DNA from: Pseudomonadota bacterium
GTDB taxonomy: Bacteria > Pseudomonadota > Gammaproteobacteria > Pseudomonadales > Moraxellaceae
Direction of reading: 5' to 3'
DNA: 54,576 nt
Assembly (NCBI GenBank): GCA_021781515.1
Contig: JAJXWR010000006.1
Span: 1-54,576 of the forward strand
Shown: piece by piece, positions 14,290 through 19,832 of the stretch
How positions within the stretch are numbered: position 1 is the first letter of the stretch
Layout of the letters: each line of letters starts with the position of its first letter
Position numbers and translations under genes: made by a program
Notes under the pieces: model-generated
The model's database searches: none
Told to the model about the DNA's origin: nothing
What the model saw: only the letters and a program-made list of their open reading frames with translations

Positions 14290-14452
14290 GGCGCATGGTT
14301 GCCTCGTTGACTGCTGCAAGGATGCCAATCATAAGCCAAAGCCGCTTAAGGAACCAGTCCCATCGACAAGACTCAGAGTCGCAGGTGGCTGTAAACCGGC
14401 GGGCGGAAAGCTGAAATTTTACTAATCCGATGCAATCAATGTATGAGGCGGT

Positions 14453-14496
14453 CAACCAACCAACCAACCAACCAACCAACCAACCAACCAACCAAC
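14453..14496. repeat. (CAAC)11 tetranucleotide microsatellite about 165 bp upstream of ubiE
   Basis: Read directly: 44 nt of perfect CAAC units. Confidence 0.97.
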
Positions 14497-14697
14497 AGGT
14501 TTTCCCATCCACCCGGGCTCAATGTTGATCCTTTTTTGGAGCGACGTACCTGATACCTGTATTTTCGCTGTACAACATTTTTCGTGTTGTAACATGAGGT
14601 AACGGGGTGTTACTCGACGTAGCGAGAAATTCAGGTGATGAATCATGTGAGATTTAATAAATAGATATAATTCAATACGTTGCAAATATAAATGATA

Positions 14698-14713
14698 TTG
14701 GCACGGATCATGC
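14698..14713 (+). promoter_or_regulatory. Sigma54-like -24/-12 element in repeat copy 1
   Basis: TTGGCACGGATCATGC: GG-N10-GC spacing, TGGCACG -24 half matches the RpoN consensus. Confidence 0.5.
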
Positions 14714-14740
14714 TTTTTATGCTTCATGCAGGATGATAAA

Positions 14741-14829
14741 AACAATAAAGCAAAGCATAAAACAATAAAGCAAAGCATAAAACAATAAAGCAAAGCATAA
14801 AACAATAAAGCAAAGCATAAAACAATAAA
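14741..14829. repeat. 20-bp tandem repeat AACAATAAAGCAAAGCATAA, 4 full copies plus partial
   Basis: Perfect units at 14741, 14761, 14781, 14801; partial at 14821. Confidence 0.97.
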
Positions 14830-15472
14830 TATATAATAAAAAACAAGTAAAATTAATAATAAAAACAAGCAAAAACAAAAAATTCAAAATAACAAAAAAC
14901 CTAAACAGCCAGTAGTATAGATATGATGAGCACTGGGAGACGACGAAGTCTCCCGCTCCACAAACACCTCTGCAAGACACGATAACAGTCTCTTGCTCGA
15001 CTTTTTCTGTTGTCAGTAAAACGTCAGTAAAACGCATGCTATGATGCAAAACTCGGCAGTTCTAAATGTTGAGTGGTAAGCTTTATCATTCCATCTTCGT
15101 GTACTATCGAACCCTGTTGATTACCTTCTAGCAGTTTGATTTTGGCGTTGTGTAAGAGTGATTAAAGCCATACATGCTTGGGGTTTGCTTCATGACGTTC
15201 ATGATGGATATCCTGACGGCCGCTGCCAGTGGTTTGTCCGCATGAATCAATTGGCAGCATGATAATCATTAGGATGTTGAGTTCCTTTAACTATGAAATC
15301 CAATTTAGTTTTGTTCATTGAATACCCTCCATACGTTGCTGCACTTCGTTGTTGAATAAAGAGTGAGGGGTTCTGCTGTTAAATAGTGCCATCTGTCGGC
15401 TCATGAGTTGCCTTGGCCAGAAACATAATGGCCGCTGTACCTGTCGTACAAACAAATGCTTGATAAAATAGG

Positions 15473-15561: not shown

Positions 15562-15820
15562 ATCTGTGGTGTTTCTGCTCAGGACGACATGTATTTTTAG
15601 GTGATTGAAGAGCGCATGAACACCGAGGTGGTTATTGAATTCCTGAAAAAACTTTATCATGCAGCGGGTTATTCATTTTTTCATTGCTGAGAATGTATGC
15701 TATTATCAGCGTATAGAAGTACAGGAGTTTCTGAAAACGCAACTGGAGAAAATCATGATGGTTTTTTACCGGCGTATTCTCCGGAAATCACTTTGGGTGA
15801 GCAGATATGAAATCACGCCA
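15562..15820 (+). pseudogene. Degenerate IS630-family transposase C-terminal fragment
   Basis: Frame pieces: ICGVSAQDDMYF*VIEERMNTEVVIEFLKKLYHAAGYSFFHC* and GFLPAYSPEITLGEQI*NH (cf. LPxYSPELNPxEQxWNH); internal stops and a frameshift. Confidence 0.8.
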
Positions 15821-16107
15821 TATTAGATGTGAGTAAGACATCATTTAAGAGTAAATTCTAAATTTAATGCATTTTTCATTCATCGATATTATCTAGTCAA
15901 CAAGAAATAGAATTGGCGAGAATCTGCTTTTGCTGGATTGACATGTTGTATGCTGTAAAATGCGAATAATAGAAAACATGTGAAAATTTATGCAATGCAT
16001 AAGGCTTAATCAATGTCGGAATTTTCGGTTTATCAAAATGTTCAGTGATTCACGCAAATAATATCGTTGTTATTATTGATGAAATTTAAAATTTTTGTAA
16101 ATCAATC

Positions 16108-18015
16108 ATGTCTAAAAAACTGCTAAGCATCCCTGTAAAAATATCTCATTATCGTCCAGAAGTGGATGGTCTCCGAGCTATAGCTGTTATTGGAGTACTA
16201 ATTTATCATGCTGTTCCTGGTATCCTGCCGGGAGGATTTACAGGAGTTGATATTTTTTTTGTAATTTCAGGATATTTGATTTCAAAGTTGTTGATCCATG
16301 ATATTGATGCTGGGAAATTCAATGTCATTGATTTTTATAAAAGAAGAATACGTCGCTTGTTTCCAGCACTTATTCTTGTTATTTTAACTACATGGATCTT
16401 TGGATTATTGCTTTTCATGCCCAATGAGCTCAAATCATTGGGTGATGCCATGATCAATGCTTCTTATTTCTTTAGTAATTTTCAGCTAGTCAACGAAGCA
16501 GGTTATTTTGATGTAGATGCAAATTTAAAACCACTACAACATCTCTGGTCGCTTGCAGTCGAAGAGCAGTTTTATATTGTTTGGCCATGGTTTCTTGTTT
16601 TGGTGTGGCGATGGAAATTTATTAGAAATTATAGAAATTATATAGTGTTGACTATTATTTCAATCAGCCTGTATATCACATTGAATACTAAAATAGATAA
16701 TTCAGTAGCCAGATTTTTTTTGCCACAGTATAGGGCATGGCAGATCCTTTCAGGAGCCATGCTTGCCATGAATGAAAAGTGGATACGTGAAATTCTGCTA
16801 AGAAGATGTTGGGGAAAATATATAGCTTTATGCGGACTGATTATTATAATTTTTTCCTACATTCATATAAAAGGAGGAACATATTATCCTGAATTTATAG
16901 CAGTTCTGCCGGTTATGGGGGCTTTGTTTGTTATCGCTGCGCCCAGTTCTTTAGGAATGAGTAAAAAATTGTTAGCCACGCGCCCTTTCGTTGAATTTGG
17001 CATTATAAGCTATCCAATTTATCTTTGGCACTGGCCACTTTTTTCAATGGCTCGAATTCTTTTTGGCTCGCCATCATCTTATTTGCTGGTTTTTTTAGCC
17101 GTCCTGTCAATTGTATTGGCTTGGGCAACATTTTACTGGGTTGAATCCCCCATTAAATCAGGCCAGTCTGTCAACCTTGAATCGAACAAATTCTATTACT
17201 TGTGTTTGATTGGATTGTTGGCTTTGGGCGGAATAGGTGATTTTACAAGGAATCACAATGGGTTTCCAGCCCGTGTCGATGGTAATTTCTGGTCACAAAT
17301 TGCATGGCCAAGAGATATGGTTTACTCAAAGCAATGTCTTGGTGGTTTTAAGTTTCCCGGTTTGTTTTGTCAAATAAACTCATCGGCTCCAATAGATTCT
17401 GTGCTGATAGGAGATAGTCATGCCAATCATTTTTTTTTCGGATTGTCGAAAAAACTAATGACGAATCATGAAGGGCTTATAGAGATATCTGGCCCATTAT
17501 ATCTTAAGGATATCACGCAAAATAATGTAAAGTTTATCCTGCGAAACAATTTCATAAAAAATGTATTCATTGCCTACTATTTTGGAAGAATAAATCAGAG
17601 AGATAATCCATTTGGACAAGTCATGAATAGCATGATTTATAGTTTTATTAAATACAACAAAAATGTTATTGTCATCATTGATAGTCCAGGGTTTGATGTC
17701 GATCCGAGTTTATGTACTAATCGACCATGGCTAGCAAGGATGTTTGAATCAGGACAACGCACTAGAAGAAACTGCTCAGAATCCATTGCGTATATGAATA
17801 AAAAAAGACGGCTCTATACTGAATTTTTAAATAAAATTTCTGTAATGTATCCAAAAGTAAAATTCATAGATGCCTATACGCCATTTTGTAAAAATCAGCG
17901 ATGCGAACCTATGATGAATGGTAGTTTATTGTTTAGGGATCGTCACCATCTAACAACATTTGGGTCAGATTTCTCATTCAATAATGTGGATATTTCAAGG
18001 TTACTAACATTGTAG
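16108..18015 (+). CDS. OafA/YrhL-type membrane acyltransferase with C-terminal SGNH domain (probable O-antigen/surface glycan acetylation)
   Basis: YRPEVDGLRAIAVIGVLIYHAVPGILPGGFTGVDIFFVISGYLIS; SLAVEEQFYIVWP; SGNH motif IGDSHANHF and late DRHHLT. Confidence 0.93.
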   Translation: MSKKLLSIPVKISHYRPEVDGLRAIAVIGVLIYHAVPGILPGGFTGVDIFFVISGYLISKLLIHDIDAGKFNVIDFYKRRIRRLFPALILVILTTWIFGLLLFMPNELKSLGDAMINASYFFSNFQLVNEAGYFDVDANLKPLQHLWSLAVEEQFYIVWPWFLVLVWRWKFIRNYRNYIVLTIISISLYITLNTKIDNSVARFFLPQYRAWQILSGAMLAMNEKWIREILLRRCWGKYIALCGLIIIIFSYIHIKGGTYYPEFIAVLPVMGALFVIAAPSSLGMSKKLLATRPFVEFGIISYPIYLWHWPLFSMARILFGSPSSYLLVFLAVLSIVLAWATFYWVESPIKSGQSVNLESNKFYYLCLIGLLALGGIGDFTRNHNGFPARVDGNFWSQIAWPRDMVYSKQCLGGFKFPGLFCQINSSAPIDSVLIGDSHANHFFFGLSKKLMTNHEGLIEISGPLYLKDITQNNVKFILRNNFIKNVFIAYYFGRINQRDNPFGQVMNSMIYSFIKYNKNVIVIIDSPGFDVDPSLCTNRPWLARMFESGQRTRRNCSESIAYMNKKRRLYTEFLNKISVMYPKVKFIDAYTPFCKNQRCEPMMNGSLLFRDRHHLTTFGSDFSFNNVDISRLLTL

Positions 18016-18163: not shown

Positions 18164-18589
18164 AGGATATTAATTCTGGTATGTGTTTCCGGTCAACACG
18201 CCTATCCCGTCAGTGATCATTGCCATAGCGGCAAACAGATTCCGTTTTTACTGTATTGTACTGATTTTTTGGCGAGACTGCCCCGATCTTATCCTGAAAA
18301 ACGATTTCGCATCGGGTAACAGCAGCCCATTACTTAGCCACCGTTCCTAAGAACCGTGCAGACGATTCACCCCGCACAAGCATCACGGCAATTGTGGTGC
18401 AATTGGCTCAATCTTGATCCTGTTTTTGGAATAACGTCCCTGCTTTCTGAGTATTTGCACTGTCCAACATTTTACGTGTTGTAACATGAGGTAACGGGGT
18501 GTTACTCGACGTAGCGAAAAATTCAGGTGATGAATCATGTGTGATTTAATAAATCCATATAGTTCAATGTGTTGCAAATATAAGTAATA

Positions 18590-18605
18590 TTGGCACGGAT
18601 CATGC
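18590..18605 (+). promoter_or_regulatory. Sigma54-like -24/-12 element in repeat copy 2
   Basis: TTGGCACGGATCATGC, identical to copy 1. Confidence 0.5.
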
Positions 18606-18652
18606 TTTATATATTTCATGCAGGATGATAAAAACAATAAAGTAAAGTATAA

Positions 18653-18687
<35 letters not shown>

Positions 18688-19079
18688 TAAAAGCAGTAAT
18701 AAAAACGATAAATATATAATAAAAAACAAGTAAAATTAATAATAAAAACAAGCAAAAACAAAAAATTCAAAATAACAAAAAACCTAAACAGCCAGTAGTA
18801 TAGATGTGATGAGCACCGGGAGACGACGAAGTCTCCCGCTCCATTCCTGATACCAAGCCTTATCAAAAATTAGATCTCTTGTTTCGTTAGTTCCTTCGAA
18901 TTTTATTTGATAAATCAGTGTGTTTTTGCATGGTTAGCGTGATGTCCATGGGATATCGTGTAATCACGTAGATATACAACGGATAGAACATGCCTGTAAG
19001 GGGTACACTGGTTTTGTTCAGGCCGGTTCAGCGGCTGTGGTTACCTTGAACCGGTTTGGGTGCTGATGTTGACTTATAA

Positions 19080-19832
19080 TCACGAGGTTCCGAAGGGGTT
19101 CGGGTCTCCATTCATGATTTTTGCGGATATGGTACGTTCTACTTGAGCAAAGCTGTTGATAAATTCTACGGCTGAGCCCATGGGTTTCATTACGGCAAAC
19201 CCTTTTTCCAGAAAATCATAAAGGCCGCCGAATCCGGCCAGATGTGCTGGTCGGAACGCCAGTTTGAAGGTGGCATAGATAACCCGGGAACGGACGTAGC
19301 GATCTAGTCCCAGTCCAAGTGCGGCAAAGAGATCCAGTTGGCGGATCCGTGCTTCCTGATGGCTGGTGCGTCGGTAGGCTTCGCAGTAGGTTTCAGCGGT
19401 GACTTCTTCTATTTTCATGTCTTCAAAAAGAATTTCTGTCATGCGCTGATCGAGTTCTCCGGTGAGTGAATTCAGTTCCAGCGCAATCCCTGAGGTACGG
19501 AGTACGGAATCGGGGAGTAGACGTGAGGCAATAGGTAGTGCTCGTTCAACTTCATTCGCCAGTTCCGTTAAGTCGAGTCCGCCATACATATCTGACAGGA
19601 AAAATTCAGTAGCCGCCCGGTAACGTTCGTCTTTGAGCAAGTGCGCATGCGTGTTTTTTAGCCGATTGACTTGCCAGAGTTGTAATTTGACGAAGTGATT
19701 GCTAAAAGCCTCATCATGATGGCAACGCCAGGTCCGGAATTCGTTGAGTTCTGCGCGGAGCTGATCGGCAGTGCTGGTTGCAGGCCCGGAACGTTGGCTG
19801 ACCAGTTGTAAGTTGGGATGATCCATAGACAT
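19080..19832 (-). CDS. Conserved hypothetical protein (FFLSDMYGG motif)
   Basis: Long uninterrupted ORF with protein-like composition, downstream of hslU in the same orientation. Confidence 0.7.
   Translation of the reverse strand: MSMDHPNLQLVSQRSGPATSTADQLRAELNEFRTWRCHHDEAFSNHFVKLQLWQVNRLKNTHAHLLKDERYRAATEFFLSDMYGGLDLTELANEVERALPIASRLLPDSVLRTSGIALELNSLTGELDQRMTEILFEDMKIEEVTAETYCEAYRRTSHQEARIRQLDLFAALGLGLDRYVRSRVIYATFKLAFRPAHLAGFGGLYDFLEKGFAVMKPMGSAVEFINSFAQVERTISAKIMNGDPNPFGTS

Follow-up and report, generated by a model that had tools for sequence, protein, structure and literature searches.

The window (the whole 54,576-nucleotide stretch of DNA that was analyzed) carries two forward-strand copies of an intergenic element, designated A and B, that can be aligned over positions 14516-14960 and 18405-18843 with 87-89% identity. 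Each copy carries an upstream block, GTAACATGAGGTAACGGGGTGTTAC (14589-14613 in copy A and 18481-18505 in copy B), a predicted CbrB binding site with half-sites GTAACA / GTAACG / TGTTAC whose first base lies ∼110 bp upstream of the TGGCAC of the promoter. The window contains exactly two instances of the promoter string itself, TTGGCACGGATCATGCTT, at 14698-14715 and 18590-18607 (0.02 expected by chance), and the one in copy A has the exact GG-N10-GC spacing of sigma54 promoters (GG at 14700-14701 and GC at 14712-14713). Between block and promoter, copy A has an integration host factor (IHF)-like site, ATTCAATACGTTG (14670-14682), with 1 mismatch to WATCAANNNNTTR and at the same offset in most copies of the genus; the corresponding site of copy B, GTTCAATGTGTTG (18562-18574), is weak, with 2 mismatches. 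An A-rich tract follows the promoter, and the copies close with the hairpin string GGGAGACGACGAAGTCTCCC, which also occurs exactly twice (14935-14954 and 18818-18837; chance expectation 0). The original prediction had described this layout of GG-N10-GC promoter, upstream palindromic block, A-rich tract, and terminal GGGAGAC-GACGAA-GTCTCCC, and we found every part of it in both copies. It had also proposed that the promoter, upstream, and hairpin parts are conserved with divergence between them, as the alignment bears out: the differences are concentrated in the A-rich tract, where copy A has four tandem 20-mers, AAAACAATAAAGCAAAGCAT (14739-14818), and copy B has an AAT run. Just before copy A, at 14451-14497, the tetranucleotide CCAA is repeated ∼11 times, a run that is likely to be slippage-prone, and the region between the two copies encodes a fusion of an acyltransferase-3 protein with an SGNH domain (16108-18015).

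Placing the start of transcription 12 nt after the GC, the predicted RNA of copy A spans 14725-14960 (∼235 nt) and that of copy B spans 18617-18843 (∼226 nt), both on the forward strand and both 57% A. They contain 15 and 23 AAnAAnAA motifs, respectively, compared to a mean of 7.5 for shuffled sequences in each case, and the RNA of copy B includes an A-R-N run of 18 units. The RNA of copy A is predicted to be unstructured (overall z -2.2) apart from its 3' end, where the hairpin GAGC-acu-GGGAGAC-gacgaa-GTCTCCC-GCTC (14928-14958; -18.1 kcal/mol, z -4.0) is located; the hairpin of copy B (18811-18841) is identical in sequence. No U-run follows the hairpin at either window copy, so this structure is not a textbook intrinsic terminator.

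A search of the genome (2.79 Mb in 142 contigs, 96% complete) revealed four further copies, on contigs C53, C142, and C41 (two copies), for a total of six including the two in the window (E ≤ 1e-23). When the copies were aligned in register, the activator block, the GG-N10-GC promoter, and the hairpin were retained in 6/6 and nearly invariant, with no change in the core stem of the hairpin; the preservation of promoter spacing and hairpin in other copies, on which the original prediction had depended, is thus seen at the sequence level. Variation in the A-rich tract takes the form of substitutions, insertions or deletions, and short tandem repeats. As a control, the reversed promoter pattern gave 0 matches genome-wide. 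The six predicted RNAs are 214-263 nt long and 55-59% A, with 12-23 AAnAAnAA motifs versus shuffled means of 6.6-11.9, and their longest ATG open reading frames (0-40 amino acids) are of low complexity and not conserved. All six copies are intergenic and lie in unrelated neighborhoods. Homology among the diverged copies extends from ∼20 nt before the activator block to just past the hairpin, limits that define the unit as promoter plus RNA; the copies on C53 and C142 have longer flanks in common. A search for the element in plasmids gave no match, and the 29 matches from an exact 18-mer scan of contigs from other genomes were scattered taxonomically and were judged to be due to chance.

In Pseudomonas, the CrcZ and CrcY RNAs sequester the RNA-binding protein Hfq once good carbon sources are exhausted. 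The promoters of crcZ and crcY combine CbrB half-sites, an IHF site, and a sigma54 promoter (PMC6296734), and the promoters described here are homologous to those of this family. The TGTTAC/GTAACA half-sites of the upstream block are the same as the CbrB subsites of P. putida (PMC6296734), but they are spaced by 9-12 bp rather than the 20-25 bp reported for that species (PMC6296734), and their order also differs. The IHF-like sites located between block and promoter have 0-2 mismatches to a consensus that is short and weak when considered alone. The original prediction knew of no family with this layout; that statement must be revised, because the CrcZ/CrcY/CrcX RNAs of Pseudomonas share it. 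An Rfam search, as had been suggested along with that prediction, yielded nothing useful in the window at gathering or relaxed thresholds: RF01675 (CrcZ) gave no match in the window region either at the gathering threshold (95 bits) or at E ≤ 10, and its best score genome-wide was 15.4 bits, away from the six loci. Given this result and the detachment of the copies from cbrB (see below), we refer to the elements as CrcZ-type and not as members of RF01675.

We searched the genome for candidate regulators by using PF00158, which identified six sigma54 activators along with one weak, Clp-like match. NtrC and NorR passed curated cut-offs, and three more activators can be read from their sequences and neighbors as FleQ-, PilR-, and FleR-like. 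The sixth is CbrB, with 51-64% identity to CbrB proteins from other genomes in which cbrB is next to pcnB or to the RNA; the other five activators are far below it in identity to those proteins. The cbrB gene overlaps the 3' end of the preceding gene, which encodes a 986-residue CbrA-like kinase whose N-terminus is long and hydrophobic and whose domains include PAS, HisKA, and HATPase. An SSS symporter domain is a known feature of CbrA; in this kinase the domain was below Pfam significance, so the name CbrA rests on its position, C-terminal domains, and length. No copy of the element adjoins cbrB in this genome, where the gap between cbrB and smpB is only ∼40 bp. Hfq is also encoded. The sole Crc/ExoIII homologue found with a Pseudomonas Crc query (L089:1498-2271, on contig C117 of this genome, G000; 36% identity) adjoins pyrE, as does crc in Pseudomonas, and it keeps the nuclease motifs LQE, GDFNIAH, and SDHAP that are changed in Pseudomonas Crc. 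This protein could be a Crc of ancestral type or one that is bifunctional.

The identity of the activators bears on an improbable alternative to CrcZ-type RNAs, namely a sigma54-controlled family of base-pairing small RNAs whose conserved 5' end or hairpin would pair with mRNAs without titrating Hfq. Precedents exist in the Qrr RNAs of Vibrio (LuxO/sigma54), which are multicopy, sigma54-driven, structured, and base-pairing, and in GlmY and GlmZ of enterobacteria (GlrR/sigma54), of which GlmY is a decoy; furthermore, the 5' end and the flank of the hairpin are better conserved than the tract. Neither LuxO nor GlrR was found among the six activators, however, none of which reaches the LuxO cut-off, and the half-sites are of the CbrB type. 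The resemblance to Qrr lies in multiple copies and sigma54 control, and that to GlmY/GlmZ in sigma54 control and the decoy role of GlmY; GlmY and GlmZ have other activator sites, are structured, and lack an A-rich tract. The RNAs in question are mostly of low complexity, A-rich, and filled with Hfq motifs, and their tract diverges and grows by tandem units, as expected under selection on composition and not on a seed.

Relatives of the element were sought in other genomes. In a BLAST search of 58 related genomes the matches were weak and A-rich, and upon inspection those in G001 and G002 (same genus) and in G045, G047, and G049 (other families) displayed the same promoter plan. In G001, the apical C-G pair of the hairpin is replaced by G-C and the lower stem GAGC/GCTC by a TGG/CCA-like pairing, changes that are consistent with selection on pairing in a comparison of few sequences made by eye. 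We take pcnB to be the gene that follows crcZ in Pseudomonas. The crcZ gene lies downstream of cbrAB in that genus (review). The copy in G047 is between cbrB (59% identity over 298 residues) and pcnB, and that in G045 is upstream of pcnB; this placement is the crcZ position of Pseudomonas.

A sequence-only model, R1, was built from 12 training sequences that included those from G045, G047, and G049 and none from Pseudomonas. R1 had matches in 266/392 genomes of the order (E ≤ 0.01), some of the weak ones being bound to be other sigma54 promoters. The order is that of Pseudomonas, as genomes with Rfam CrcZ loci belong to it, and the family of the own genome is a different one from theirs. Among 29 loci fetched from other genomes, 24 had cbrB and/or pcnB beside the match, and two of the remaining five (L108 and L109) are Rfam CrcZ loci, with scores of 233 and 325 bits. 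Because G045, G047, and G049 had been used to train R1, a second model, R2, was built from sequences of the own genus alone and run on 30 whole genomes. Its best match in the entire genome was the Rfam CrcZ locus in both Pseudomonas genomes tested (G242 and G282) and the cbrB-pcnB locus in G117, G178, G177, G126, G104, G058, and G387; in some others of the 30, the cbrB-pcnB locus ranked second or was missed. The arrangement cbrB - RNA - pcnB is therefore found in many families of the order, and the Rfam model misses nearly all of these loci.

Within the same family, CbrB (51-75% identity) is present in 18 of 37 genomes, including the own genome. Strong RNA matches (E < 2e-4) were observed in 10/17 of the other genomes with CbrB and 0/19 of those without it (Fisher test, 8e-5, using a cut-off that was picked after the table had been seen and treating genomes that are not independent). 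In seven genomes of the family (G003, G004, G013, G018, G019, G029, and G031), the RNA immediately follows the 3' end of cbrB. In two of these, G004 and G019, a T-rich stretch comes after the hairpin, GGGAGACC-CAG-GGTCTCCC, and it is plausible that a hairpin of this form was the ancestor of that in the window copies. Several families have two promoter-plus-RNA units in tandem beside cbrB, spaced by ∼290-570 nt (L095, L098, L101, L106, L111, L113, and L190); the decoy RNA has been duplicated there repeatedly. Four loci of genus g8 (L069-L072), in the same family and lacking CbrB, have a conserved GTAAC-N6or7-GTTAC block and a TGGCAC-containing stretch upstream of a gene, with promoter-like spacing that is not canonical for sigma54.

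The original prediction had left a choice between a regulated noncoding RNA and a mobile regulatory cassette. The six copies, the orthologues in many genomes, and the co-occurring activator strongly favor a sigma54-regulated noncoding RNA with an activator site, as judged by sequence comparison, and the second possibility fared poorly. A mobile or repetitive element (MITE- or REP-like) that carries promoter-like motifs passively would account for six dispersed copies, the longer flanks common to C53 and C142, and the transposase-like remnants near two copies, but this explanation is very improbable. Diverged copies lose their homology at the activator block on one side and just past the hairpin on the other, leaving promoter plus RNA as the only common unit; no terminal inverted repeats join the ends of that unit, inspection by eye showed no target duplications, and the orthologues are fixed between cbrB and pcnB in many families. 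The remnants themselves, IS630-like by eye and similar to one another, are located near copy A (15600-15980) and near the C53 copy (L003:1232-2424); duplication of the RNA gene could possibly have been assisted by the insertion sequence. Finally, a leader or attenuator that acts under sigma54 control on a protein gene farther downstream would share the order of promoter followed by hairpin, but it can be practically dismissed because copy A is >1.1 kb away from the next codirectional gene (16108), the gene that copy B faces (19080-19832) is on the opposite strand, and the remaining copies are in unrelated neighborhoods.

We conclude, with a probability of roughly 0.85, that the two elements in the window and the four elsewhere are genes for CrcZ/CrcY-type decoy RNAs. 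For their transcription, the binding of CbrB and IHF, the titration of Hfq, and the carbon signal, we infer the following sequence of events. When preferred carbon becomes scarce, the sensor kinase CbrA would activate CbrB, which would bind the TGTTAC/GTAACA block while IHF bends the DNA between this block and the promoter. Sigma54 RNA polymerase would then start ∼12 nt after the GC, yielding an unstructured, A-rich RNA of ∼215-265 nt with a stable hairpin at its end. The AAnAAnAA motifs and A-R-N runs of this product would occupy Hfq at its distal face, whether or not Crc takes part, and would thereby free mRNAs of catabolic genes from repression.

Such a system is of a known kind but a clear variant, being amplified, relocated, and outside the Pseudomonadaceae. 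Like CrcZ/CrcY/CrcX (Pseudomonas and Azotobacter; RF01675), it combines CbrB half-sites, an IHF-like site, and a sigma54 promoter, in that order, with A-rich RNAs that contain AAnAAnAA motifs and close with a hairpin; the RNA is present in redundant copies, and CbrA-CbrB and Hfq are encoded as well. In contrast to those RNAs, there are six dispersed copies with none beside cbrB, the half-site block is compact, and the bacterial family is different; moreover, the RNAs are shorter (∼215-265 versus ∼400 nt) and richer in A (55-59% versus 36% in one Pseudomonas CrcZ-family copy), and the Crc homologue is nuclease-like. A tentative scenario, to which we assign somewhat less than even odds, is that the common ancestor of the order already had CbrAB and a CrcZ-type RNA, a pairing not confined to the Pseudomonadaceae, and that in this lineage the decoy left cbrB, came to occupy six loci, and is tuned by dosage without a dedicated, noncatalytic Crc. 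The last element of this scenario is suggested by the nuclease-like sequence of the single Crc homologue that was found.

In the open-access literature, descriptions of CbrAB/CrcZ-type control of Hfq are limited to Pseudomonas and Azotobacter, and earlier reports from elsewhere may exist. With the loci described here, the question of how carbon catabolite repression by Crc/Hfq originated can be tested outside Pseudomonas, and a lineage with a sixfold amplified decoy becomes available. These loci also raise the question of whether Hfq decoys are older than the loss of the nuclease motifs of Crc. An extreme case of tandem expansion was noted in G002 (L121 / L041), where the RNA tract, near a contig end, consists of an AAAAAAC unit repeated >10 times.
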